A stretch of 64,000 bases of DNA, from NCBI RefSeq assembly GCF_009727055.1, contig NC_052353.1:45411954-45475953 (forward strand). The letters run 5' to 3'. The translations under genes and the position numbers were made by a program. The notes under the pieces are model-generated. The model was not told the origin of the DNA and searched no databases. It was given only the letters and a program-made list of their open reading frames with translations. Source of the DNA: Benincasa hispida (Eukaryota; Streptophyta; Magnoliopsida; Cucurbitales; Cucurbitaceae). Shown in pieces: positions 9,240 to 55,690 of the stretch (positions are counted from its first letter, which is position 1; each line of letters starts with the position of its first letter).

Positions 9240-10068
9240 AAGGTATTGGATTTTTACATGACCTACAATTATGACCTATACTACCACAACGAGTACAACT
9301 TTCTCTTTTTCCTAGGTCTTCAAGCCGGGCATTTGACTTAAGGAGGACAAATGGTGTCATCATTCAAATTGCAATGACTTAAAAATTGTTGCACATTACC
9401 AATCGGCCATGTTTCCTTGCTATATAATGAAATTAAATTTGAAACATGATAAAAGTCATGAATGTATGACTCTAATCCAAGGTTTTTAAAGACAAGGCAA
9501 TGCAAGCATGGGGACATGGTGTCTAGATCCTAACGATGACACGAACAACTGCGGTTGAGGATGTTCACGTGGAATTGTTTGGTTTTGTCATGGACTTCAA
9601 ACTCATGTTGGTTAATAGGATATATCTGTAATAGAAAATATTAAACTAATTAAAATAAGTACATATACATATGATATTTTAATTAACAATCACATAAAAT
9701 GGAAATGACTCACATCCATCGATCTACTATCCCTTAATGATGTTCGAAGTATATCTTCTACATATGAAGTTAGTTCTGAAAGTTGAAAACTAGAATTACT
9801 GTGACATTCATAGAACCATTGTTGAATCAAACTCCGAATAAATTCAAGAAGGCCAAGAATAGGTAATTCATGCGCTTCCTTAAGGTATGAATTGATACTT
9901 TCAGATATATTTGTGGTCATCAAGGTATATCTTTTTCTTACACAAAATGCCCTGCACCATTTATGTTTGCCTAAATCTTCTAATTCAAACCTAATTGAAG
10001 GGGATATATCATCCAACTGCCTCATGTAATATTCATAGTCAAAAGTTGTATAGGCCTTGTTCGAAGGA
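9240..10068 (-). pseudogene. MULE (MuDR-type) transposase, C-terminal part
   Basis: Minus-strand translation gives, in order, an AYTTFDYEYYMRQLDDI segment at about 10060-10010, KWCRAFCVRKRYTLMTTNIS, ESINSYLKEAHELPILGLLE, and LIQQWFYECHS. These are the usual C-terminal landmarks of plant MULE transposases. Beyond 9690 there is a degraded SWIM-type segment (MPCLHCLVFKNLG near 9500) and a CCHC zinc knuckle (CTRCGSIGHNCRSC near 9280). The upstream part of the same gene resumes at 11693 after an insertion. Confidence 0.85.
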
Positions 10069-17000: not shown

Positions 17001-20000
17001 GTGTTTGGTGGTCTTCTTAATGCTGACATGGCTGAAGATGTTCACCGCCAAGCAAGAGATGTTGGTGGCGTATGCTCTATTGTTTATCCTCTTCCCAAAA
17101 AAGAAGTTGAACAACATGGTATATGAAAATCGTGTCTTTTGTTTTTATGCACATGGGTAGTAGTTATTATTTATTATTAGTTTTGTGAATATAGTTCATG
17201 ACTTCAGTTGCATTTTAAGGTGTCACTACGATTAAGGTTGAATGAATTATACCCTGAGCAGTGTTTGCCCAAATTTTCAGTTGCCTCTTGTACTTGATAG
17301 GTTGACTCTGCAGTAAGTTTAGTTAATTTGTTTTTAGTCTAAAGTTGTTCCAGAATGCAATTTTCTCAATGATCAAATTGATTATATCATTTTTCTCGAG
17401 ACTCTCATTACAGAAGACAAATTTTCTTCTCTTATTATACCAATGTATCTTGTGTGTCTATCTAATTTGGGAAGTTCATTATGGTGGTGGCTTTATTATC
17501 TTGATAGTCAATGGAGTTGCAAGTAAAAGTGATTCCTCTTAAGGTCTTAATTAGTTTCAAATGAACTTCAGGTCTTTTACGAGATGGATGCAAAATGGAT
17601 GTTTCAGCTGTACTTTTTGCTAGTGTGAAGTCTGCACGTGCTGCTGTTACCATATTACACCAGAAAGAGAGGAAAGGAGGTGTTGTTTGGGCCCGTCAAC
17701 TGGGTGGGGAGGTGAATCATACATTAAACTTTACTAAATATGAACATATTTTTGTATCTTTATTAAGTATTTACATCTTTTTAAATGGACTACACTAGCT
17801 CTGTATGCCCTTGAAATAATACAAGACCATGATCAACCCATTTGGTTGTGCTCTCTTTTGTCTTCATTTTATTTTATTTTTATTTTTTTTGGAAACCACT
17901 CTTTATTTGCGTCTTGTTTTCCTCATATCAATATTTTGTTGAATATTTGTAGATCTTGTGATCAAAGGTAATGTCCTCAAGAGCCCTTTCTTCTCCTCGA
18001 AATATTATGGGACTGTTACAAATGACTCAAATAATATCTCTATCGATCCATAACACCTTAGCCTTGTCCATAAATTTTGTGTCCGTTAGCTTTTGGAAAA
18101 TATATCATCGTTTGTTTAGTGACACCCTGGAAACTGAAGATAATGGAGTACTCCAAAATTTTTAAGAAAAGAGAGTATGGGATGAATCAATTTCAAGAAT
18201 TTGTTTTCATCATTAACTAATAACTTCTATATAGGGAGCACCACCTTGGTAAGAGAGAAGGATGTCTCGTTTGAATTTATTGTACATCGTTCCCATCAAA
18301 ATAAAACGTACATGAACATTTTGATTTTTTGGACTTTTATCCAAATCAGCTTTTAAGTATTGGAAGAAGTGACCACCTGAATGGCTATAATATTGTGGAC
18401 AGATCTGCAGTTGAAAAGTCTGGAAGATCCTAGTCTTTTGCTGTCCCTTATGGAACTCAGTCCAGAGGTCTATTATAAGCTCTCTAACCATCCATCACTT
18501 TCTATATCATTTTTAAATCTGAAACCAGTAGACCGATAATTCTTCCTAGTACTTAAGCAGTTAAAAATATGATTATCCTTTCCAGTTAATGGTTAGATCC
18601 TTGGAATAGGGCAGCCAATAAAGAGGGCCTATTCTCCACTAAATGTCCTACGGAAATCTGATTGAGGTAGCATCTCTCACAATAGAAGTCAGTTTCTTAC
18701 GTTAGATTCTTGCACAAGTGTCCTTCAGTGCTCTTTTAATAGATTTAAATTTTTAGAGATCTTAGATATGAGTGTCTTAGAAAAAAAATTGAGTATTTTT
18801 TTTTAACATTCATATATTTGAGTTATTGCAAGATCTCATTCTTTGACGTAAGAAATTCTATTCTGAATGATTTTTAGAAAGGGTTTCTTATGTATCTAAA
18901 ATCCTTAAACATCAACTCCTAATCTTTTGAATCTTAGGTTTAAATTGCTTGCTAAGTTTAATGCGTTTGTTTGCCATAGCTAAGGACTTTTACAAATTAC
19001 AATTATCCCCTATGGTCCAGTCTATTTTGTCAGACCCTTTATATTATGAAAATATCAAATGTTGCATTCCAATTACTGATAATCTGATCACATAGTTTCT
19101 TGTTTATTTTTAGTTACCTTGGATAAATCTAAAATTTTATGCATTTGTTTTCTTTGCAGGGGTCCAAAACTCAGAAATGGAAAGTTATCGTTAGAAATCT
19201 TCCATTTAAGGTTTCATGTTACACAATAAGTTATTGTCATATTTTCTTACAAGGACAGGTCGACTGAGCAAGCTTATTACACATTGATGCAGGCCAAGGA
19301 GCAAGAAATAAAGGATACCTTTTCATCCGCAGGATTTGTGTGGGATGTCATGATGCCACATAGTTCAGACACAGGGTAGTTCCCTTACTTGAATATGCAG
19401 TANCTTGTAACAGCCACCTGTTTTATTTTGTAGATTATCGAAGGGGTTTGCCTTTGTCAAATTTACATGCAAGCAGGATGCTGAGAGTGTATGTTTTTTT
19501 TTATTGTTTTGAGTTGCCCCATTTAAAGAGTTTTGAAAATTGGTACCTTCAAGTTATTTGTACATGCTTCCCTTTTTTAGGCTATTAAAACGTTCAATGG
19601 TAAAAAATTTGGTCAAAGGACGATAGCTGTGGACTGGGCTGTTCCAAAGAAGATATATAGTTCTGGTGCTAATGCTGCAGTTGATTCAGATGACGGTTAG
19701 TCATTGTATATTTAACCTAATACTGTTTCTTATACTTCCTTTACAAATTTGTTAAACCTCTTTGGTTGTACTGTCTTATCTTTGGTGTCTATACCTTCTT
19801 AGATATTTGTCATTTGCTGCTCTCTGGTTTTAAATTTACTATTAGGTTACGGATATCTCTTTAATATATGAATGGCAAATAGAGAATAAAGATTGGGTTA
19901 CGAAATGCATTGTGGTTGTCTATAAGTTAGTTTTTTTGTTGGTTTTTTTCTAAAGCTTTATACACAGAGGTCCAAAAAGAAGTGTGCATCTAGCAAGGGA

Positions 20001-33265: not shown

Positions 33266-34102
33266 CTAACTGAGGAAGAGATCCTTTTAGCGAAAGCAAG
33301 ATCGACCCATTTTCCATTTTTCATTGAATATAAGTTTTAAAGTAAATAAGAACAAGATATGTATTTACTTAAATTATAGCATGCTTTAAATAAAGAAAAA
33401 CTTAGGGTTTCAAAAACCCTTACCTTTGAAGAACAATTTCTTCAAGAATCTCTCGAACAAGTCACGAACGGATCTCCTTCTCCAAAAGAGACACCACCAC
33501 TTGAGAACCCTTTGTATTCTCTTGGGAAAAAGGATTCAAACAAGAGTTGTAGGCTTTGTGTGAATCCTTGGAAGAGAGAAGAGAGATGGAGAAGAGGAGA
33601 GGGGCTTTTCAAAGAACTTTTCTCTTCTATGTGTTTCTTTTCAGAAAGAACTCTTTCTTAGTAAAAACCAAGGAGAGAGATGAATCCTATCACCATCCAT
33701 CTATAACCCCATGTACATGGCTGAGAGAAATTGGGGGCGAGAGTTGTAACCCACTATCTTTAATTAATTAATTTAATAAAATTAAATTAATAATAATTAT
33801 ACATATAATAACAACCTTACTATATGTATATAACCTATATGTTATATCCCATATAACACATAATCTATAGTTACATATTGTATCAAATACAATATAACCT
33901 ATACATGTATTTTCTCTCAACCATACATGACATTTAATATAAATCACATTTGTATTAAATTTACTTATGTGAATCTCATTCATATAATATCCAAATATTT
34001 AATTCCTCTCAACTTATTTATGGTATTTAATATAAATCATATTTATATTAAATTAATTACATGAATCCCATTCATATAGTTAGTATTTGAATCATATTCA
34101 AA
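33266..34102 (-). mobile_element. Copia LTR fragment (minus)
   Basis: Matches 47480-48000 in orientation and order: GAAGAACA, CTTGAGAACCCT, TATTCTCTTGGG, CAAGAGTTGTGGG-like, then the GAGAGA-rich and TATATA-rich blocks. It lacks its other half, being replaced at 34103 by an LTR of opposite orientation. Confidence 0.65.
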
Positions 34103-35092
34103 TGTTGGGTTGTATGTTCTAAAACTCGCAGTTTGTAATGTTAAACATATTCTACTATCAATAAAGATGTTATTCAACATTTCTTCAATAAAATTGTTAT
34201 TGAATTTATAAATTGCATTCATAAAATCTAAATCCAATAAAGTAAGATCCATGGCTATTACATGAATACTTGAACTTTATATAGAGACATAAAGATGGAT
34301 CAAACTTGAGTAAATAGCCAAAATGGTCTATATTATATAAATAAGGTTGGGTGCCTTATTCTAGTAACACTATTGGATGCGGCCTACTCTGTAATTATTA
34401 TAAGTTGTTGTAAAGGTGCTACAAACAAAGTGATCCTAACTCGTTCATGTATTGACATGAAGAGTGGGGGCATCCTACGCAATGAATTTGTATAAGATCG
34501 GACCAAGAAATAAGTCACTCTTACTTTACAACGTTGTTTACTGTTTAAGACTAACTATTTCGCTTAGATGAACTAGGTAACTCGATTTTAATTCTGAGCT
34601 AACTATGAACTCCTGTTTATTCGGGATTATCTTTAGATTTGCATAGGTGAGGGTTGGCTCAACAGCACTGACTCAATAAGCCTCCCATTTTTGGGGTAAG
34701 ACCGGGTAGATAGCTGGGGACATAGGGTGCAAGACGGAATTCATGCCTACCCGATTTAGAGATAGGAGAAAGGTTGTTCTCTTAAGTACTGAATCCAGAT
34801 CTTGAACAAGGGGGCCCACTTTCTCATTGGCCCGAGAGGGATCCGATTTAGTGATTGGATCATAAACCAATTGTTCATTAAAGGATCAGTAGGAACTTAA
34901 GGAGCAAATGTAATATGGGAGTAAAACAGCATGTTGACCCAACCTTTATTACAAACAACCTGTGAAGGGTCAACTTACTGATTATGGTTAAATCATGTGG
35001 ACACAAATATATCTACAATGAGGAGAGTACAACTATCGAGCTATAGTGGTGTGACTTGATAGTTAACGAATACTGATTAATTTGGTCTTATT
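34103..35092 (+). mobile_element. Copia LTR fragment, family B (plus)
   Basis: Begins TGTTGGGTTGTATGTTCTAA, the same start as the LTR read on minus from 52284. It continues colinear to the equivalent of 51330 (GATAGTTAACGAATACTG), where it is cut by another LTR start at 35093. No coding. Confidence 0.7.
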
Positions 35093-39454: not shown

Positions 39455-42400
39455 ATGCTGAGGAGAAGTGGCAGGTAAAGCAAGCAGACTGAGGAAAGGA
39501 ATGTTGACCCTACCAGCGGAGGTTCTGAAGTTAGACGGGACCCAGATCCAAAGGGGAAAAAAGTTAGAGACTCAGTAGAGTAGGAAGTGACTTCTGCAAA
39601 TGATCGAGTAGCCCACGGGTAGATCTAGATCCCCAGATGGAGGATCGAGTGTTTGATAGAATCACTCAGAGATTGGCGGTAAGTGTAGGATCGATTCAAA
39701 CCGATCCAGAAAAGAAATTCGGCATCAAGAGGCTGAAAGCTTTAGGAGTCATGACGTTCGATGGAGCCACAGATCCAGTAAATGCTGAGATCTGGTTGGA
39801 CTTGATTGAGAAGTGTTTTAAGGTTATGAGGTGCCCTAAGGATCGTAAGGTTAAGTTAACGGCTTTCTTACTGCAGAATGGGGCTGAGAAGTGGTGGAAA
39901 GTGATAGAGGCCAGAAGAAATAGTTCGAAAACTATGACTTGGTCTGAGTTTAGGCAAGTATTTGAGGATAAATACTACCCTAGTGCTTTTAAAGAAGCGA
40001 AGAGGGAGGAATTCCTTAGGTTAACTTAGGGAGTGATGACGGTTGCTGAGTATAAGCAAAGATTTACTGAGTTATCTCAATATGCCCTTCCGATCATCGC
40101 GGAAGAGAAGGAGAGGTGTAGGAGATTTGAGAATGTCCTGAGAAGAAAGATACGTACACCCATTACCTCTACATTCAATTGGGTGAATTTCACTCAGTTA
40201 GTTGAGACCGCTATCCGAGTAGAGTAGAGTGTAGCGAGGGAAGATATACTCCAGCCAGGTGAAGGATAGTTTAAGATGCCTAGAGAAACGAGAAAAAAGA
40301 GATTTAGACCCCTGTTCTTTGGACAGACAGGTATGAGGAGTTTTGGAGGCAGGAGCCAACAAAGTTCAGGTCGAAAAAGGTCAAGACCTGCAGCTGGACC
40401 CAGTGGTAGATTGATATTAGGTCGTGCTAGTGAATCAGTAGCTAGTATAGGAAGGAAACCACTTTGTGTAAACTGTGGTAGGCCTCATACAGAAGTATGT
40501 TATGGCAATAAGAATGTGTGCTTTCAGTGCGGATAAGCGGGGCATTTTAAGAGAGATTGTCCTCAGCTAGGTCATGGAGCACAAAGTGAGCAAAGAGGAG
40601 TTACCCAGACTATAGACCAACCTAGAGCGACCGAAACTAGAGGTGAAGGATCCGATGTAGCTAAGCAGAAAGGGGTAGCTGGATGACCCCAACAACAACA
40701 GCAGCAGGGTAGAGTATACGTTATGACATACCAGGAAGTGAAAGAGGCTCCAGATGTCATAACTGGTACGATAACTTTATGTAATCAATCCGCTTATGCA
40801 TTATTTGATCCTGGTGATACGCACCCATTCATATATAGTATATGTGCATTACATATAGATAGAGTGCCTGAGCGTATGAATGAGGATTTGTTTATCTCTA
40901 CGCCTATAGGAGATACTCTAGTGGTACGTGAGTATTATAGGAATTGTGAAGTAATTCTTGGAAATCAGAGTTTATGGGTTGACTTGATTCCAATAGAATT
41001 ACTAGAGTTTGATGTTATCTTAGGTATGGATTTCCTAAGTAAACACTATGCCAATATGGATTGTTTTAAAAGAGAAATAGTGTTTAGAAAACCAGGTGAA
41101 AGAGAAATAACCCTGGTAGAAAGTAAAAGAATACTTCTAGGAAGTTTAATATCAACAGTGAAGGCTAGGAAATTTTTTAGTAAAGGATGCGAAGCCTATT
41201 TAGCCTATGTAGCAGTTTCACAGGATAAGAAACTGAGACCTGAGGATGTACTTGTGGTACAAGAATTCTTAGATGTGTTCCCTGAAGAGTTACCAGGCTT
41301 ACCACCTGACAGAGAAATAGAGTTCTATTGAGTTAGTTCCAGGTTTAGCACCTATATCTCAGGCACCATATAAGATGGCACCAACGGAACTGAAGGAGTT
41401 AAAAGTTCAGTTACAGGAACTTGTGGATAAGGGGTACATTAGACCCAGTGTGTCGCTTTGGGGAGCGCCAGTCTTGTTTGTAAAGAAGAAAGACGGTACT
41501 CTTAGACTATGCATAGAATATAGACAGTTGAATAAGGTGACCATTAAAAATAAGTACCCATTGCCTCGTATAGATGATCTCTTCGATCAGTTAAAGGGAG
41601 CCATGATGTTCTCTAAAATAGATTTGAGATCGGATTATCACCAGTTGAAGGTAAAAGACACAGATGTTCCAAAGACTGCATTTAGTACTAGGTATGGACA
41701 TTATGAGTTCCTAGTAATGCCATTTGGATTAACAAATGCTCCTGCAGTATTTATGGACTTGATGAATAGGATATTTCATCTTTATCTGGATCAGTTTGTG
41801 ATAATTTTCATAGACGACATATTAGTATATTCTAGTAGTGCAGAGAAGCACAAAGAACACCTGAGGATGGTGTTACAGATGCTAAAGGAAAAGAAGTTAT
41901 ATGCAAAATTTAGTAAGTGTGATTTTTGGTTAAACCAAGTCGTATTCCTTGGGCATTTAGTTTCAGCTGACGAAGTTAGCGTAGATTCCCGAAAGATAGA
42001 AGCAATAGTCAATTGGGAACGACCCCTGAATGTAACCAAAGTACGCAGTTTTCTAGGCTTAGCAGGTTATTATAGGAGATTCGTGGAGGGTTTTTCTAAG
42101 ATAGCTCTGTCGTTGAGAAACCTAACTAGAAAAGATGCGAAGTTTGACTGATCGCCAGAATGCGAGCACAGTTTTCAGGTGTTGAAATAGAAGTTAGTGT
42201 CAGCACCAGTATTAACTCTACCTATCCCAGGTAAAGAGTTTGAGGTCTATTGTGATGAATCCCGACAAGGGTTAGGATGTGTGCTGATGCAGGAGAGAAA
42301 GGTAGTAGCTTGTGCTTCTCGACAGTTAAAGAAGCATGAATATAACTACCCTACACATGATTTAGAGTTAGCAGCAGTTGTGTTAGCTCTAAAGTTGTGG

Positions 42401-43520
42401 AGACATTACCTGTTTGATAAGCGATGTCATATATTCACGGATCATAAGAGTCTGAAATATATCTTTGATCAGAAGGAACTGAATTTGAGACAGAGAAGAT
42501 GGATCGAGCTGATCAAAGATTATGACTGCACAATTGACCATCACCCAGGTAAAGCAAATGTGGTAGCTGAAGCTCTAAGTCAAAAAACTAGATCAGCTAG
42601 AGCTAGTATCAATTCAATGAAGGGTACACTGATTCATGAGTTGTATAATGCTAGGGCAGCATTATCAATAGGTTGAACAAGAGGGTTACTAGTTTCATTT
42701 CAAGTGCGTCCTACTCTCATAGAAGACATTCTATGTGAACAATTAAAGGATTCTGATCTTCAGAAGTTAGCTGGAGAAGTAGTTAAAGGATTGAGGATGG
42801 ACTACCAATTAAGAGCCGATAAAGTGCTATTAAAAGAAGGTAAGGTATGCATACCTAAGAACTTAGCACTTAAACAAGCCATTCTAGAAGAAGCACATAG
42901 TTTGGCATATGCTATGCATCCGGGCAGTATGAAGATGTACAGAACATTAAAGAGATAGTACTGGTGGCCTGGTATGAAAAGAGAAATAGCAGAGTATGTT
43001 GACAGGTGTCTAATATGTCAACAAGTTAAACCAGACAGACAAAGGCCAGTAGGATTACTTAATCCACTCCCAGTACCAGAGTGGAAATGGGAGCATATTA
43101 CGATGGATTTCCCGTTTGGATTACCTAAGACACCAGTGAGCTATGATGGTATATGGGTAATTGTGGATAGATTGACAAAAACAGCTAAGTTTTTACCTGT
43201 TAAAGTTACTTATAACCTAGACCAATTAGCTAAGTTGTATGTTGATCGAGTTGTGAGTCAGTTTGGAGCTCCAGTTTCAATTGTATCAGATCGAGACTCC
43301 AAATTTACATCAAAGTTTTGGCCTAGTTTGCAGAAAGCTATGGGAACCAAGTTATACTTTAGTACTGCTTTTCATCCATAGACGGATGGTCAGTCGGAAC
43401 GAACAATCCAGACATTAGAGGACATGCTGAGAGCATGTATATTGCAATTTAAAGGTAGTTGGGATACGCATCTGTCGTTAATCGAATTTGCGTATAACAA
43501 TAGTTACCATTCGAGGGAAT
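39455..43520 (+). pseudogene. Gypsy chromovirus gag-pol, truncated and stop-ridden
   Basis: Likely gag start ATG 39455, with the main frame from 39637. Gag: GAEKWWKVIE and FEDKYYPSAFKEAKREEFL blocks, then a CCHC knuckle (CFQCG, stop, AGHFKRDC, about 40520-40560). Protease: YALFDPGDTHPFI (about 40800), with DPG at the active site. [42 protein letters not shown] (catalytic DD, 41808-41825). RNase [25 protein letters not shown]. Integrase: an MHPGSMKMYRTLKR/RCLICQQVK zinc motif, then WVIVDRLTKTAKFLP and IVSDRDSKFTSKFW. It is broken by in-frame stops (about 40027, 40225, 40270, 40534, 40684, 42149, 42188, 42674, 42956, 43379) and a frameshift near 41327. It ends abruptly at about 43520 inside integrase, against minus-strand Copia sequence, so the chromodomain region and 3' LTR are lost. 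Lineage is probably Tekay/Del-like. Confidence 0.95.
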
Positions 43521-44390
43521 CATGTTCAAAATAAATATGGCAGTTTGTACTGCATATCCCCAAAAAAACTAAAATAACTAAGCGTAACTCATCATCGAAC
43601 AAACCATGTCTAACAAGGTTTTATTTCTTATTTCTACTACATCATTTTGTTATGGTGTACCAGGTGTAGTAAATTGGGATTGAATTCCATGTTTTATCAA
43701 ATAGTTTTGGAATTCTAAATCCATATACTCACCATCTCGATCTGATCAAAGTGTCTTAATCTTTTTACCTAATAAGTTATCAACCTTTGCCTTGTACTCT
43801 TTGAACTTTTCAAGAGTTTCGGACTTATGACACATTAGGTAAACATAACCATATTTTGAATAGCCATCGATGAAACTGATGAAATATTTAGATCCTCCTT
43901 GAGCTTTGATATTTATCGTACCACTAAGATCTGAGTGCACAAGCTCTAAAGGTTCTTTGGCTTTTAGACTTTTTCTTGTAAAAGATCTCTTAGTCATTTT
44001 ACCTCAAGACATGATTCACACGGAAATAGAGAATTGTCTTCTAACTGATTTAGAAGTCCATTTTTTACTAACCTCTCAATCTATTGATATTTATCCGTCT
44101 AAGTCTTAAGTGCTAAGGATAAGCGTTAGGAGAAATTTTTCGTTTCTTATTCAGAGTTTCAGCTGTTTTAAACATATCTATATTTAAAATAGCTTTTGCC
44201 TCAATTGGTTTTAACATATATAAGTTATTTTCAAGTTTCACAGAACATATTTGAACACCTCTTGAACTAATGAACACTTCATTTATATCAAAAGTAACTT
44301 TGTACATATGTTCTAGTAAACAGGAGATTGAAATTAAGTTTCTTTTCATATTAGGTACATGTATACATTTTCCAACAAAATGTAAGTTAT
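43521..44390 (-). pseudogene. Copia GAG-pre-integrase and integrase fragment
   Basis: Minus-strand motifs run in order: NLISISCLLEHMYKVTFD, an HLRL-H zinc region, a CESC.E.KMTKRSF block, LELVHSDLSG, YFISFIDGYSKYGYVY, and a decayed S-RDGEYMD...GIQSQFT segment to 43521. The same region at 54470-55330 is about equally decayed. Several stops. It abuts the Gypsy integrase on the left and a plus-strand Copia LTR on the right. Confidence 0.9.
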
Positions 44391-45880
44391 TGGGGTTAAT
44401 GCCCTAAATCTCGTAGGGTCATGTAGTTTGTAATTGTATTGTACAAATATTTTATTTAATTAATAAAAAATGATATGTTTTATTTGACATTTAGTAGCAT
44501 TAAACCCACAAACCAATAAACTTGCATCCAAGATTATCATCTGTAGCTTAAACATATATGTAGAGACATACAGGTGGATCATGTTTAAGTGATAACCTAA
44601 ATGGTTTGTAGTAGATGGATAAGGCTGGATACCTTATCTTGATGACACTACAAATACGACCCGCTTTATAGATGTTACAATTGTTGTAAAGTGCTACAAA
44701 TGATTTGATCCTGATCATTCATGTGGAGACATGGGAGCGAGGGTATTCTATATGAAGGAGTTTATATAAGACCAGAACACGAAATGACTAGTCTCAAGGC
44801 AGTCCTTTGATTTGTATGGGTGAGAGTGGCCAGATCTTTGACTCAATAAGCCTACCATTTTGGGGATTCATCTGATTGGGGGAGTTTGGAACACAGCTAC
44901 ATAAGATGGAATTCACTCCTTCCCCAATGTTGGGGCAAGTGGATAAATTACTCCTTTAAGGGATGATTCCAGGGCTTGAACAATGTAACTCCACACCCTA
45001 TCTTAATCCGAGAGGGTTTGCTCATAATTGGACTATGACTTATTATTCATTAGAGGGATTAGTGGTACTTAAGAAGTTAGATGTAACTATAGGGACAAAA
45101 CGGTAATTTTGGCCTAGTTGTACTTAGGAACAATTTGTGAAGATTCATCGCACTATTGACTGGTTATATCCAATGGAGACTGAAATATATATGTAGTGCA
45201 AAGAGTGCAGTTATCAATCTTTAGTGGAGTGTCCGAAAATTAATGGATGTTGAATAAAGGGATTTAATTAATTATTCAAATACTATTAGAGCTTCAAGCT
45301 ATAGGTCCATGAGGTCTCCTTTGTAGCTCAATGGGGATTTAATAAGAATCAGTTTTGGATTAATTTGAATTGTTCAAATTAAATGAGGGAATTAATTATA
45401 TGTGATATAATTAATTTACTTAATTATATATGATATAATTATTATAATATATTTGATACATTATAATATAAAGTTTATTTGAGAGGAATAAATATTTATA
45501 TATGATTCAAATATTAATTATGTGAATTGGTTTCATATAATTAAATTTAATATAAATGAAATTTATATGAAATATCATGTATTAATGATAGAAATAAAAA
45601 CTATGGGTTATATTGTATTTGATATAATATAAACTATAGGTTATATGTTATATTGGATATAACATTTAGTAAGTATATATAATATATTAAGTTAGTTAAT
45701 GTATAATCATATATATTAAATAAATTTAAATTTATTTTATTTTATTTTAAATTTTGAATTTAAAATGGAGGGAGTTATTTTATTTTAATTAGGGAAGAAG
45801 AGTGGAGTTTGAGGGAGAGGAGAGATGAGAGAAAATGAAAAGAGAAATAATAGATAAATAGTTTAAGACAAATCACTTCC
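44391..45880 (+). mobile_element. Copia LTR (plus), right edge approximate
   Basis: Starts TTATTGGGGTTAATGCCCTAA and is colinear with the LTR at 3653 and the reverse complement of 47364-48911 (GGATCATGTTTAAGTGATAA, then CCTACCATTTTGGGGATTC and AAACGGTAATTTTGGCC). Similarity to Copia LTRs fades after the A/T-rich blocks near 45880, where Gypsy LTR sequence takes over. Confidence 0.65.
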
Positions 45881-46373
45881 TTTTACATATTGACCATCTG
45901 AACAACTTAGTTAAGGTACACTTTATATAATTGGGAGTGAGAGATTCAAGCCATGTATATCTTGGTCACTAACACATACATTTATTAGTCCAAATATGCT
46001 CACTTTGATATTAAATGTGTTGAATGAGAAATTTTGGACCAATCACAAATTGCCACGTCATTTTCCTAATTGATGGCGAGATTACAAATCATCTAATTTA
46101 AGACCAATTAAAAGTTGACATGTGGCCCAAATTAAAATTGAAGACATAAATTGGCAAATTTCGTTGATGCTACTTGTCTTCATCATGAAAATTGGATTGA
46201 ATAAAAATATTTTGGTCCAATTTGATATTATAATTTGAGCTAAAATCCATTGAGCCCAAAATAGACTTAATTTGACCCAAATGTTAAATAAGGCCCAAAT
46301 CCAATTAGTTAGGCACAAGGGTCAAGTCTATGAACCAACCAAGCCCAAGTCCACGAAGCCCACCTGAGAACTC

Positions 46374-46381
46374 TATAAATA
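46374..46381 (+). promoter_or_regulatory. LTR TATA box
   Basis: TATAAATA in CTCTATAAATAGAGG, within the Tat-like LTR, about 330 bp before the 33-bp repeats. Confidence 0.6.
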
Positions 46382-46708
46382 GAGGAATTCTCTTCATTTG
46401 AGGGGGTCAGAAATTTTAGACTCCAGAGAGTCTAGAGAGAATTCTCTAGAATTAAAAGACTCTTTGACTCCTAAAGCTGATCACGCCTGAAGACTAAAAT
46501 CCTTTAGAGATACAAGCATTCTTCCAAGACTTCAACTTCAAGAACATCCACATGTTCCGCTTCCATACATCAAGCGTACGCATTCAACCGAGAGAGAATC
46601 AGAGGATTAAGTACTAGAGATCGACCACATCTGCATCAAATCTACATTAACATAAGTTCAACTCTATGAAATACATTTATCTAGAAGCCTCATGTGAACA
46701 TTGACCCT

Positions 46709-46930
46709 CCAAGAACATCATCAAGCCCAAAAGTTGATCATCCAAGAAGATCATCAAATCCAAAGGCCGATCATCCAAGAAGATCAACAAGCCCAAAAAC
46801 TGATCTTCCTAAAAGATCATCAAACCCAAAGGCAGATCATTCAAGAAGATCAACAAGCCGAAAAGTCAATCATCCAAGAAGATCAATAAGCCCAAAGGTT
46901 GATCGTCCAAGAAGATCAACCAACTTAAAC
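46709..46930 (+). repeat. 33-bp tandem repeat (about 6.5 units)
   Basis: Units of 33 bp around CCAAGAAGATCAACAAGCCC, then AAAGGCCGATCAT, with about 80-90% identity between neighbours. Because 33 is divisible by three, all frames stay open, giving an 11-residue periodic peptide (HPRRSTSPKAD-type) that is not a gene. A decayed counterpart (about 5 units) lies at 55378-55560. Confidence 0.85.
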
Positions 46931-47125
46931 ATTAAAGGTTATTTTGAAAGCATTAAAGGATTATGTATTAGAAATTGTACTCGCTATATTGAAATTAATA
47001 TAAATACAAAAGTTCAAATTCCACGAAACGAGTTTCTCCAGAATCCTTGTGCGAATAAATTGGCACACGTAGTGGGACATCTCTACTTCTCATCTCTCTC
47101 ATCATCTAAATCAACAAAGCAATAA

Positions 47126-47363: not shown

Positions 47364-48911
47364 TGAAGGGAATCGATGAAAGTCCTTGTGCGGAAACGTG
47401 GGGATCGGTCCCAATTTTTGTGTTCACACAATTTTGAATTACATAACAGAAAGATAAAATTATGCTTTGACAAACTAAAATTACAGCATGCTTTTTTAGA
47501 GAAATAGGGGGAAAATGGCTTACCATTGAAGAACACCTTCTTCGCGTAATTCCCTCGATTCATGATCACCAACGCTTCGATCTGGATCTTGAATTCAAAA
47601 TCCCAACAAGGGCACGACCACTTGAAAACCCTCTATATTCTCTTGGGATTGAGAATTCAAGCAAGAGTTGTGGGTTTTGTTTGAATTCTAGAGACAGGAG
47701 AGATAAGGAAGAAAGAGAAGCATTTTCTTCTCTGTATTTTTCTTGGAAAACAAAATAGAGAGATCAAACAACTGTCCGCAACCCCATAGTCCCGTGTATT
47801 GCTTTGAGAGAGATTAGGGGAGTCCTCCCGTTAATTAAATTAAAACAAATAATTTAATTTAATTTAATTTAATTTAGTTAATAATATATATATATATATA
47901 ATTAACACATAACCTATAGTTTTATTTTCTCTCATCATTACATGACATTTAATATAAATTATATTTATACTAAATTCAGTTATATGAATCTCGTCCATAG
48001 AACCTGTCTCTTATACACATCTAGATGTGTATAAGAGACAGGTATTATACATGTATTTCTATATCCACTGCATATAACCAGTCAAACGATGACCATTCAT
48101 AAATTACTCCTAAGTATAGCTGGGCCAAAATTACCATTTTTCCCCTATAGTTTCATCTAACTTCTTAAGTACCACCGATTCCTCTAATGAACAATAAGTC
48201 ATAGTTTAATTATGACCGAGTCCCTCTCAAGCCAAGAGAGGGTATGGCCACATAGTTCAAGCCCTAGAATTAGCACTTAAGAGAGCAATTTATCTACTTA
48301 CCTCGACATCAGGGAAAGAGTGAATTCTGTCTTGTGTAGTTGTGTTCCCAGCTCCCCAATCAGACGAATCCCCAAAATGGTAGGCATATTAAGTTGGCAA
48401 TCTGCCCACTCTCATCCATATAAATCAAAGGATCGCCTTCATAGGTAGGAGTTCACAACTCACTCAAGATTCAGGTCATGGTCACTTATGGTCATCCTGG
48501 TGAAATGTAAGTCTCTACTATTAACGGTGTTATATAATGAGACTAATCATTTCGTGGTCTAATCTTATACAAACTCTTTGTATAGGATATTTCCGCTCAC
48601 ATATCTTCACATGAATGATCAGGATCAAATCATTTGTAGCACTTTACAACACTTTTAATATCTACAAAGTGGGTCATATTCGTAGTGTCACCAGGATAAG
48701 GTACCCAGCCTTATCCATCTACTATAGACCTTTTAGGTTATTATTTAAACCAGATCCACTTGTATGTCTCTACATACTTTTTTAAATAACATAAAATAAC
48801 CTAGGATCTTAGTTTATTTGATTGAGTATATGCTCATAAAATAACAATTTATTTATACAATGTTTACAAACTATGAGAATACAAGAGATTTAGGACACAC
48901 CAATCCCAATA
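47364..48911 (-). mobile_element. Solo Copia LTR with 5-bp target duplication
   Basis: Flanked by GATGT on both sides (47359-47363 and 48912-48916), and gag reads continuously across when the insert is ignored. On the minus strand it begins TATTGGGATTGG and ends CCCTTCA, so its termini are TA...CA rather than TG...CA. It is colinear with the LTRs at 3653 and 44391. Its present 1548 bp include a foreign 38-bp adapter (48004-48041). Several hundred bases present at that place in sister LTRs appear to be missing there. Confidence 0.85.
48004..48041. other. Nextera mate-pair junction adapter (assembly artefact)
   Basis: CTGTCTCTTATACACATCT directly followed by its exact reverse complement AGATGTGTATAAGAGACAG. 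This is the 19-bp Tn5 mosaic end in tail-to-tail arrangement, identical to the circularisation junction of Illumina Nextera mate-pair libraries. It is not plant sequence. The bases on its two sides were joined by library circularisation and may not be neighbours in the genome. Confidence 0.97.
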
Positions 48912-52284: not shown

Positions 52285-55200
52285 AACTCCCACTTAGACT
52301 ATCCAGTGGATTTTACATATATATACAATGTTGAGTAATGAGAGAATAAATACAATAAACTAGGGCATCAGATACCCAGTACTTCTCCCACTTTCCCTAG
52401 TTCTACATATTTTGCAGCCCTAGTCCCACTAGGTGACCCTCGAACACTTTAGCCGAGAAGGCCTTTATAAATGGATCAGCCAAATTGTTTGTAGAGGTAA
52501 TCTATGTGACAATCACATCTCCTCGATGTATGATCTCTCTGATGAGATGGTACTTGTGCTTGATGTGTTTTCTGCGCTTATGGCTTATAGGTTCCTTTGA
52601 GTTAGCCATTGCACCATTATTATCACAATAAATAATGATAGGCAGATGCATATTTCGAACAACTTCCAAATCGGTCAAAAACTTTCTGAGCCATACCGCT
52701 ACTTTTGCTGCTTCACTGGAAACTACATACTCAGCTTCCATGGTGGAGTCAGCAATACAACTTTGCTTGATACTCCTCCACACTATAGCTCCTTCGTTCA
52801 GAGTGAATACTAACCCCGAAGTAGATTTTCTAGAATCTATATTGGTCTGAAAGTCAGAATCAGTGTATTTAGTAAGGATTAGATCCTTAGCACCATACAC
52901 GAGCATATAGATCTTATTCTCCGAAGAGATATTTTAACGGCAGTTCAATGATCATATCTAGGATTGGACTGATATTTGCTGACAATTCCAACTGCATAGC
53001 ATATGTGGAGACAAGTACACAACATAGCATACATTAAACTCCCTACTGCTGATGCATATGGAATTTGTTTCATAACCTCAACCTCTTGAGGTGTCTTAGG
53101 ACACTGTTCCTTAGACAAATGAATTCCATGCCTGAAAGGCAATATACCTTTCTTAGAATCTTGCATTTTATATCGAGACAACATCTTGTCTACATAAGAT
53201 GCCTGAGACAAGGCTATCATTCTATTCTTAGGGTTCTGAACGATTCGGATCCTAAGAACATACTGTGCTTCTCCAAAATCCTTCATTTGGAATTGCGTGG
53301 CTAGCCATATCTTAATATCAGCTAGAAATTCTACATTCCCAATGAGTAGAATATCATCAACATATAGAACCAGAAAAGCTACAGTATTATTGACAATCTT
53401 CTTGTAAACACAAGGTTCATCAGCATTCTGTTCAAAGCCATAAGATTTGATCGCAGTATCAGTTCTCATGTTCCAGGATCGAGACACTTGTTTTAGCCCA
53501 TAAATGGATCTATTAAGCTTGCAAACCTTTTGCTCTTGACACTGTGCAATAAACCCCTCTGGTTGAGACATATAGATACTCTCTTCAAGATAGCCATTCA
53601 AAAAAGTTGTCTTGACATCCATTTATTAGATTTCATAATCATAAAAAGTGGCAATAGACAAGAGTATCCTAATAGACTTGATCATGGCAACCGGAGAGAA
53701 GGTTTCCTCATAGTATACCCACTCTCTTTAAGAAAACCCTTTTGCCACGAGTCTAGCTTTATAGGTCTATATCTTACCAGCTTGGTCTCGTTTTCTCTTG
53801 TAGATCCATTTGCAACCAATGGGTTTTACCCCTTCTAGTTGATCTACAAGATTCCAAACTAAATTAAGTACAGTGACTCCATTTTGAGGTCCATGGCTTT
53901 TATCCACTGGTATTTATCCACATCACTCATTGCTTGTTTAAAAGTCAATGGATCCTCTAAGTCATCATCAGGTATGACGACCTGAGTTTCAGTTAAACCC
54001 ATGTACCGGTCAGGCTGTTGCACAACCCTCCCACTACATCGATGAATTCTCAACTCTTGAGAATGATGTGAAATATAAGTTCCATCAACAACTCTTGTTG
54101 AAGGACTGTTGTTGAAGGACCTGCTTGATCAAAAACTCTTGTTGATCTATCTGTAGTTTCTCCGGTTATCTCACTTAATACTAGCTTACTACGAGGTTGA
54201 TGATTTTTAATGTGATCTTCCTCTAGAAATGTTGCATTTGTTGACACAAATATTTTATCTTCCTAAGGATCATAAAAGTAACCACCTTTTGTTTCTTTGG
54301 GATAGCCTACAAATAGGCATACCTTTGAACAGTGTTCCAGCTTCTATGGAATTTGTACTGACATATGTGCTGGACAATCCCAATTCGTGAAGTGACGTAA
54401 ACTACCTTTACGTCCTCTCCAAAACTCATATAGTGTTTCAAAAACACTTTTCGACAGAACCATGTTCAATATATACACCGCAGTCCCTACTGCGTGGCCC
54501 CAAAAAGAACTTGGCAACTGAGCATAATTCATCATAGAAAAAACCATGTCCAACAATGTTCTATTTCTCCTTTCTGTAACACTATTTTGTTGAGATGTGT
54601 CAGGTGCTGTGAGTTGTGATTGAATTCCGTGTTCTATCAAATAGTCCTAGAATTTTAAGTCCATGTACTCACCACCTCGATCTCATCGAAGTGTTTTAAT
54701 CTTTTTACCTAATTAGTTCTCAACCTTTGCCTTATATTCCTTGAACTTTTCAAGTGTATTAGACTTATGATGTATTAGGTAAATGTAGTCATATCTTGAA
54801 TAATCATCGATGAAGCTGATGAAATATTCATACCTTCCTCTCGCTTTAACATTCATCGGACCACAAAGGTCTGAATGTACCAGTTATAAGGGTTCTTTGG
54901 CTTTAAGACTTTTTCCAGTAAAAGATCTTCTGGTCATCTTACCCTCGAGACAAGATTCACATGGCGGTAAAGAGCTCTCTTTTAACTGGTTTAGAAGTCT
55001 TCTCTTAACCAATCTCCCAATTTTATTGAGATTAATGTGACCTAGTCTTAAGTGCCAAAGATAGGTACTTGGAGAAATTTTGAGTTTCTTATTTTGAGTT
55101 TCAGCTATTTTAAACATCTCTATATTTAAAACAACTTTTACCTCAGTTGGTTTTAACACATATAAGTTATTCTCTAGATTTGCATAACATACTATATTAC

Positions 55201-55370
55201 ATTTTGAGATAATGAACATTTCATTCTATTCAAAAGAAACTTTGTAATTTTGTTTTAGCAAACATGAGATAGAAAGTAAATTCCTTTTCATAAAAGGAAT
55301 GTAATAAACATTTTCAAGTAAAATGTGTCTATCTCCAATAAATAACTTTATATCTCCCACTGTTTTAGTA
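52285..55370 (-). pseudogene. Copia pol (GAG-pre-integrase, integrase, RT, RNase H), minus strand
   Basis: On the minus strand from high to low coordinate: HLRLGHINLNKIG and CESCLEGKMTRRSF (GAG-pre-integrase, about 55060-54930); a decayed integrase core to 54344 (GIQSQLTAPDTSQQNSVTE, RTLLDMVFSMMNYAQLPSSF); a linker at 54247-53859 (YMGLTETQVVIPDDD); RT from 53622 (MDVKTTFLNGYLEESIYMSQ, SIYGLKQVSRSWN, LVLYVDDILLIGN, RIRIVQNPKNR); and RNase H from 52906 (STSGLVFTLNEGAIVWRS, ADSTMEAEYV, KHIKHKYHLIREIIHRGDV). Gag and the 5' LTR are missing; it stops at about 55370 against Tat-like LTR sequence. The core is broken by about six stops or frameshifts. YVDD is intact in RT. Confidence 0.95.
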
Positions 55371-55690
55371 GAAATATCAGGAAGATCAATAAGCCCAAAG
55401 ATTGATCATCCAAGAAGATCGCAAAGACCGGTCATCGAAGAAGATCAACATGCGCAAAGGCTGATCATTGAAGAAGTTCGACAAGCTCAAAGGCCGATCA
55501 TTGAAGAAGATCAACAAACCCAAAGGCCGATCATCCAGGAAGATCAAACCAGCTTAAGGAGTAAAGTTTATTTTGAAGGCATCAAAGAATTACGCATTAG
55601 AGATTGTATTCACTAGACTGAAATTAATATAAATAAAAAGTTCAAATTCCACAAAACAAGTTTATCTGGAAACCTCGTACGAACAAAATG
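55371..55690 (+). mobile_element. Tat/Ogre-like Gypsy LTR end (second copy)
   Basis: Resembles 46850-47055: degraded 33-bp repeats (55378-55560), a TTTATTTTGAAGGCATCAAAG block, then CAAATTCCACAAAAC and CTCGTACGAACAAAA, after which similarity stops. Probably the right end of the 3' LTR of the element whose gag is at 47126-50455. Confidence 0.65.
55378..55560 (+). repeat. 33-bp tandem repeat, decayed copy
   Basis: About five units of 26-33 bp (GAAGAAGATCAACAAACCC, then AAAGGCCGATCAT); one unit has a 7-bp deletion. Same family as 46709-46930. Confidence 0.75.

Follow-up and report, generated by a model that had tools for sequence, protein, structure and literature searches.

In this study, we found that the 38 bp at positions 48004-48041 of a 64-kb stretch of the wax gourd genome are almost certainly a technical artefact of a known kind and not biology. 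The stretch, referred to here as the window, corresponds to C5:45411954-45475953 in an assembly of 912,946,352 bases and 1,791 contigs. The 38 bp most probably represent an untrimmed Nextera mate-pair junction, at which two adapter-ended extensions were merged at the palindrome that they shared, with the loss of about 320 bp.

A mate-pair junction adapter inside the assembly

The 19-bp mosaic end of Tn5, CTGTCTCTTATACACATCT, is printed in PMC3046479 and described there as a hyperactive derivative of the Tn5 end made for in vitro use. It matched positions 48004-48022 with no mismatches, and positions 48023-48041 were its exact reverse complement. The resulting 38-mer was identical to its own reverse complement and was thus a perfect palindrome. 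With up to three mismatches allowed, these two were the only mosaic-end matches in the window, against a chance expectation of 0.02. A 12-mer screen of the window for other adapters gave only isolated matches of 12-13 bases, which were taken as chance. The features of the window are listed in Table 1.

Table 1. Features of the window that bear on the junction and its surroundings
Feature	Positions	Strand	Remarks
Retrotransposon gag, RVT_1 and integrase pieces	39604-43381	+	Pfam; rve match below cut-off
Inverted sister copy, adapter-free	44400..45850		317 bp between flanks (strongest match)
Left flank, AT-rich part of LTR-like repeat	47824..48003		Present in sister copies
Left tagmentation end	47995..48003	-	Outward 9-mer GTTCTATGG, 5/7 against GNTYWRANC
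Tn5 mosaic end, 19-bp, adaptor half 1	48004..48022	+	Exact match; letters as in PMC3046479
Tn5 mosaic end reverse complement, 19-bp, adaptor half 2	48023..48041	-	Exact match; 38-bp palindrome
Right tagmentation end	48042..48050	+	Outward 9-mer GTATTATAC, 5/7 against GNTYWRANC
Right flank, remainder of LTR-like repeat	48042..48897		84-87% identity to other scored copies over ~48051-48400
RVT_2	52945-53622	-	Pfam; sole such reverse transcriptase among 7 open frames scanned

As described in PMC3928519, every tagmented end receives a biotinylated adaptor of 19 bp in the Nextera mate-pair protocol, and the two adaptors are joined when the molecule is circularised. The program NextClip searches for 34 of the 38 bases of this adaptor pair, which needs to be clipped (PMC3928519). 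The 38 bp at 48004-48041 have the same make-up as the junction adaptor of the Nextera (Long) Mate Pair protocol, a transposon end followed by its reverse complement between two tagmentation ends. However, the wax gourd copy lies inside a finished assembly, and its flanks run forward with a gap rather than end to start. A mate-pair 'ring adapter' that is used for circularising DNA has the same 38 letters (PMC7357533). That adapter was ligated to DNA sheared by ultrasound, whereas the Tn5 target preference at the wax gourd adapters points to tagmented ends. The library was presumably of the Nextera type. The adapter identity given in the original prediction is upheld by the exact match, the palindrome, the agreement with the NextClip description and the number of its occurrences in the genome.

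Recurrence in the wax gourd assembly and in unrelated assemblies

The exact 19-mer was found 10,766 times on the forward and 10,764 times on the reverse strand of the assembly, and the reversed-letter control was not found at all. The exact 38-mer occurred at 9,991 places, again with no occurrence of its reversed control. Perfect junctions accounted for 19,982 of the 21,530 exact half-adapters, and the other 1,548 were in broken junctions, so that between 9,991 and 11,539 sites carry at least one exact half. The original prediction had proposed an adapter screen of the whole assembly, and its outcome shows that the fault is genome-wide, not local. The TruSeq read 1 adapter, the sole outer adapter tested, was found at 0 places in the genome.

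Bacterial genomes from unrelated groups, among them Ideonella sp. MAG2, Scytonema tolypothrichoides VB-61278, Collinsella ihumii GD8 and Enterococcus sp. 10A9_DIV0425, contained the exact 38-mer in at least 120 stretches (L057-L176), and it was also present in 7 stretches of viral contigs. Such recurrence, at unrelated places of one genome and in unrelated assemblies, is the behaviour of an artefact.

The assembly is very probably that of wax gourd B227, which is given as 912.95 Mb in PMC9905507. The wax gourd assembly in PMC6856369 comprised 913 Mb in 2,197 scaffolds, 397 of which were anchored to 12 groups. Its contigs were built by ALLPATHS-LG from paired-end reads, scaffolding relied on five libraries of mate pairs (2 and 8 kb) prepared by the 'Illumina standard protocol', and gaps were filled by PBJelly with PacBio subreads (PMC6856369). 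The main text of PMC6856369 contains neither the word 'Nextera' nor the word 'adapter'. B227 is also cited in PMC11186066 in a comparison of genome size and contiguity. Our literature search, whose shallow coverage makes it no proof of absence, found no report of adapters in wax gourd.

Tn5 target preference at the adapter edges

Since a tagmented fragment begins at a site cut by Tn5, the sequence next to the adapter was compared with the Tn5 target motif AGNTYWRANCT (PMC3046479), whose inner nine positions were scored as GNTYWRANC with a maximum of 7. The plant sample consisted of 40 stretches at listed 19-mer places in the first 5.6 Mb of C1, a non-random choice that left out the last two sites of the list, and together with the window it held 53 adapter occurrences, of which 45 were perfect and 8 damaged. 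Over the perfect sites, which provided 85 distinct ends, the mean score was 3.84 of 7. Random positions in the same DNA scored 2.62 (sd 0.13), the largest value in 1,000 resamplings was 3.04, and a shift of 1-9 bases lowered the score to 1.97-2.93. An earlier motif, fitted by eye to the data, had scored 4.12 and was replaced by the published one. The same preference was seen in bacteria, where the ends of 144 distinct sites with at least 60 bases on both sides scored 3.63 against a background of 2.55 (sd 0.07). The flanks thus start at sites of the kind that Tn5 targets in vitro.

A 9-bp target duplication across the adapter was found at none of the 45 perfect sites, where the best agreement was 7 of 9 and the mean 2.6 of 9. 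At the window site, the compared flanks CCATAGAAC and GTATTATAC differ. Because the ends carry the Tn5 motif and the 9-bp duplication is absent, the two flanks of each site look like independent in vitro cuts.

These data also bear on a biological or engineered insertion of Tn5 type into the plant genome. The mosaic end does derive from the end of Tn5, but an insertion of this kind is contradicted by the absence of a 9-bp target duplication and of any DNA between the two ends, by the 9,991 places in one genome, by the identical 38-mer in unrelated bacteria, and by the origin of the mosaic end as a hyperactive derivative for in vitro use (PMC3046479). Its likelihood is negligible, and a genuine insertion was rejected on the recurrence together with the lack of a target duplication.

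Retrotransposon surroundings

The window around the adapter consists of nested retrotransposons. The element with gag, RVT_1 and integrase pieces is presumably of Gypsy type, and RVT_2 is taken here to be a Copia-type reverse transcriptase. When 7 open frames were compared with Pfam, 3 had no match, and no coding part could be tied to the repeat that bears the adapter. The label of Copia solo LTR for this repeat is therefore unproven.

Several other structures were seen in the window. At 33492-34904, the repeat has a copy that is rearranged or composite, in which a directly oriented homologue of the left flank lies beside an inverted homologue of the right flank. About 2.3 kb with the inverted sister LTR (44356-46695) split an element that is contiguous in its copy at 54450-55690. 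Tandem repeats with a spacing of 33 bp are found inside open frames in both copies of this split element, at 46695-46950 and 55377-55578. A single N at position 19403 is the only ambiguous base of the window.

Sequence missing between the flanks

The region 47700-48400 was compared with the whole genome, and 40 of 12,633 first-look candidates were scored. Among these 40 places, only the window itself gave a match that spanned the adapter. Elsewhere among them, matches to the left flank ended at or before 48002 and matches to the right flank began at or after 48042. A left-flank match on the same strand was also present at 21 of the 39 other scored places. In 20 of these 21, the flank matches were separated by 285-467 bp as judged by eye, and in the remaining one an AT-rich match lay 24 bp off.

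Nine sister copies were compared in detail, namely eight of the 20 places (L049-L056) and the inverted sister at 44390-45850, all chosen for having both flanks. In all nine, the flanks had the same order and orientation, and none contained a match to the adapter. After correction for unaligned ends, the space between the flanks in L049-L056 was 319, 321, 282, 328, 325, 320, 328 and 320 bp, respectively, and in the inverted sister it was 317 bp. The strongest match gave a space of 317-328 bp in 7 of the 9 sisters. L051 and L056 were ambiguous, with the strongest match at 389 and 428 bp and a nearer, somewhat weaker one at 282 and 320 bp. The left flank holds sub-repeats, and weaker alternative spacings of 90-557 bp were set aside; these were weak AT-rich matches at 90-130 bp in L049, L052 and L053, and others at 350-557 bp. 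As judged from alignment to these sister copies, which are only about 85% identical, about 320 bp are missing at the window site. This length agrees with the few hundred bases that the original prediction took to be absent, and the collinear flanks in adapter-free sisters support its view that the two sides were joined artificially.

The same comparison addresses a loss of about 320 bp at the window copy in the course of evolution, with the adapter added later without further loss. The sister copies do vary in the missing region. However, the deletion was seen in 0 of the 9 sisters, and the 285-467 bp retained at 20 of the 21 places argue against it as well, although both sets were chosen for having both flanks. 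We regard this course of events as extremely improbable.

It was also considered whether a mate-pair circle had run from one LTR to the other of a full-length element, so that its joined ends mimic a deletion within one LTR. The repeat is abundant, with 12,633 first-look candidates, and elements with two direct LTRs could span 8 kb. However, among the 40 scored of these 12,633 candidates, the best match outside the window copy was 91% over 94 bp for the left flank, besides an AT-rich match of 94% over 33 bp, and 87% for the right flank; as far as scored, both flanks look like one locus. Within the window, partners in direct orientation reached a similarity of only 79-83% for the left flank and 67-75% for the right flank. 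Such an LTR-to-LTR circle is quite improbable.

Topology of the join at other adapters

The relation between the two flanks was examined at the other adapters of the plant sample. In 21 of the 53 sampled adapters, the right flank restarted inside the final 56-296 bp of the left flank, which gives short tandem duplications. Control points were taken from L009-L028 only, and 2 of 393 showed a restart, compared with 11 of the 25 adapters within the same stretches. The overlap criterion was chosen after the data had been seen. Three of the 21 overlap sites come from one loop in L025, and two (L012 and L032) match at only 92-93%. The loop, at L025:4652-5190, contains four adapters with an exact spacing of 167 bp, made up of a repeated 129-bp piece and the 38-bp adapter, as if the assembler had circled a small ring.

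Larger distances were seen at a few sites. In L030, L042 and L043, sequence from about 0.4-1 kb upstream was repeated at 94-100%. The left flank at L019:4694-4867 had a direct match of 95% over 175 bp, located 3.8-4.0 kb downstream of the adapter near a run of N, and L019 may be a kb-scale mate-pair junction or a repeat. L018 was the only other gap-type site measured. Its flanks were in forward order with 1,257 bp between them in the sole sister without an adapter among the 39 other places scored, a reading that is blurred by an inverted right-flank piece inside the 1,257 bp and by inverted pieces near several other copies. In the repeat at L018:4934-4971, the adapter stood at the same position in the copies C9:4926734-4927121 and C1241:709422-709802. 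Several copies of this repeat may have been served by the same junction reads, or Tn5 may have a hot spot there.

The bacterial assemblies resembled wax gourd in the exact 38-mer, in the Tn5 preference at the ends and in short overlaps, which were found at 27 of 144 sites (a raw count without control). They differed in the reach of the duplicated sequence. Direct copies of the right flank lay 0.1-4.1 kb upstream at 19 of the 144 bacterial sites, with 99.7-100% identity and 9 of them beyond 1 kb (raw counts without control), whereas in the plant such copies reached only 0.4-1 kb, at 3 of 53 adapters, 27 of the 53 having mostly about 1 kb of flank.

A fold-back through the palindrome was rejected, since no inverted match abutted the adapter at the 53 plant sites. 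The inverted matches seen elsewhere were the inverted sister LTR in the window, the adapter's own palindrome in L025, an 83% match of the L015 left flank about 3 kb downstream, and a short match each in L013 and L027 (15 and 19 bp). Among the bacterial sites, 12 of 144 had an inverted match (a raw count without control).

Probable origin of the false join

A read through a circularised molecule runs from the fragment end through the adapter to the fragment start, and the right flank of the join then lies upstream of the left flank in the genome. The original prediction had explained the window site by an untrimmed junction read. Its account of an adapter left in and of an artificial join still stands, but a single read would put the right flank upstream, and it was found about 320 bp downstream on the same strand in 9 of 9 sisters. 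It is therefore unlikely that an untrimmed junction read, derived from just one circle, was built into the contig here. The restarts in the plant sample and their scarcity at control points, the L025 loop, the L019 match and the upstream copies in bacteria show the topology that such a read would leave. At the window site, however, a search of the 4.8 kb upstream gave no direct copy of the right flank, and the direct copies located elsewhere in the window were only 67-75% alike. A kb-scale duplication at the window site was likewise sought, and none was found at high identity.

Because the right flank is downstream and not upstream of the left, two adapter-ended ends fit better than one junction read. 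In the reading that we prefer, Tn5 would have cut plant DNA in vitro, so that every fragment carried a 19-bp mosaic end at either side. On circularisation, two mosaic ends would then have been joined into the 38-bp palindrome, which would have remained untrimmed before assembly. During contig patching or gap filling, an extension of the left contig would have ended in the adapter and an extension of the right contig would have started with it, which would mean that two different reads met here. Both extensions would have been merged at the palindrome common to them, and the intervening LTR sequence of roughly 320 bp would have been dropped. By the same process, ends that overlap would give a tandem duplication, and ends that fall short of each other would give a loss of sequence. 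The step at which this happened may have been the patching by ALLPATHS-LG or a later gap filling.

Consequences for the wax gourd reference

Any structure inferred across 48004 is unsafe. The B227 assembly is a widely used crop reference, and we consider it reasonably probable that it carries from 9,991 to about 11,500 unmarked false joins, each of them either concealing a gap or creating a spurious tandem duplication, with the palindrome itself as the glue by which gaps were closed. The adapter marks these places exactly, with about one suspect join in every 79-91 kb of assembly, and a single pattern search is enough to screen for them. Suspect joins of this kind can affect contig statistics, gene models, and calls of tandem repeats and structural variants. 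If this view is true, part of the gene models and variant calls published for wax gourd would rest on false joins.
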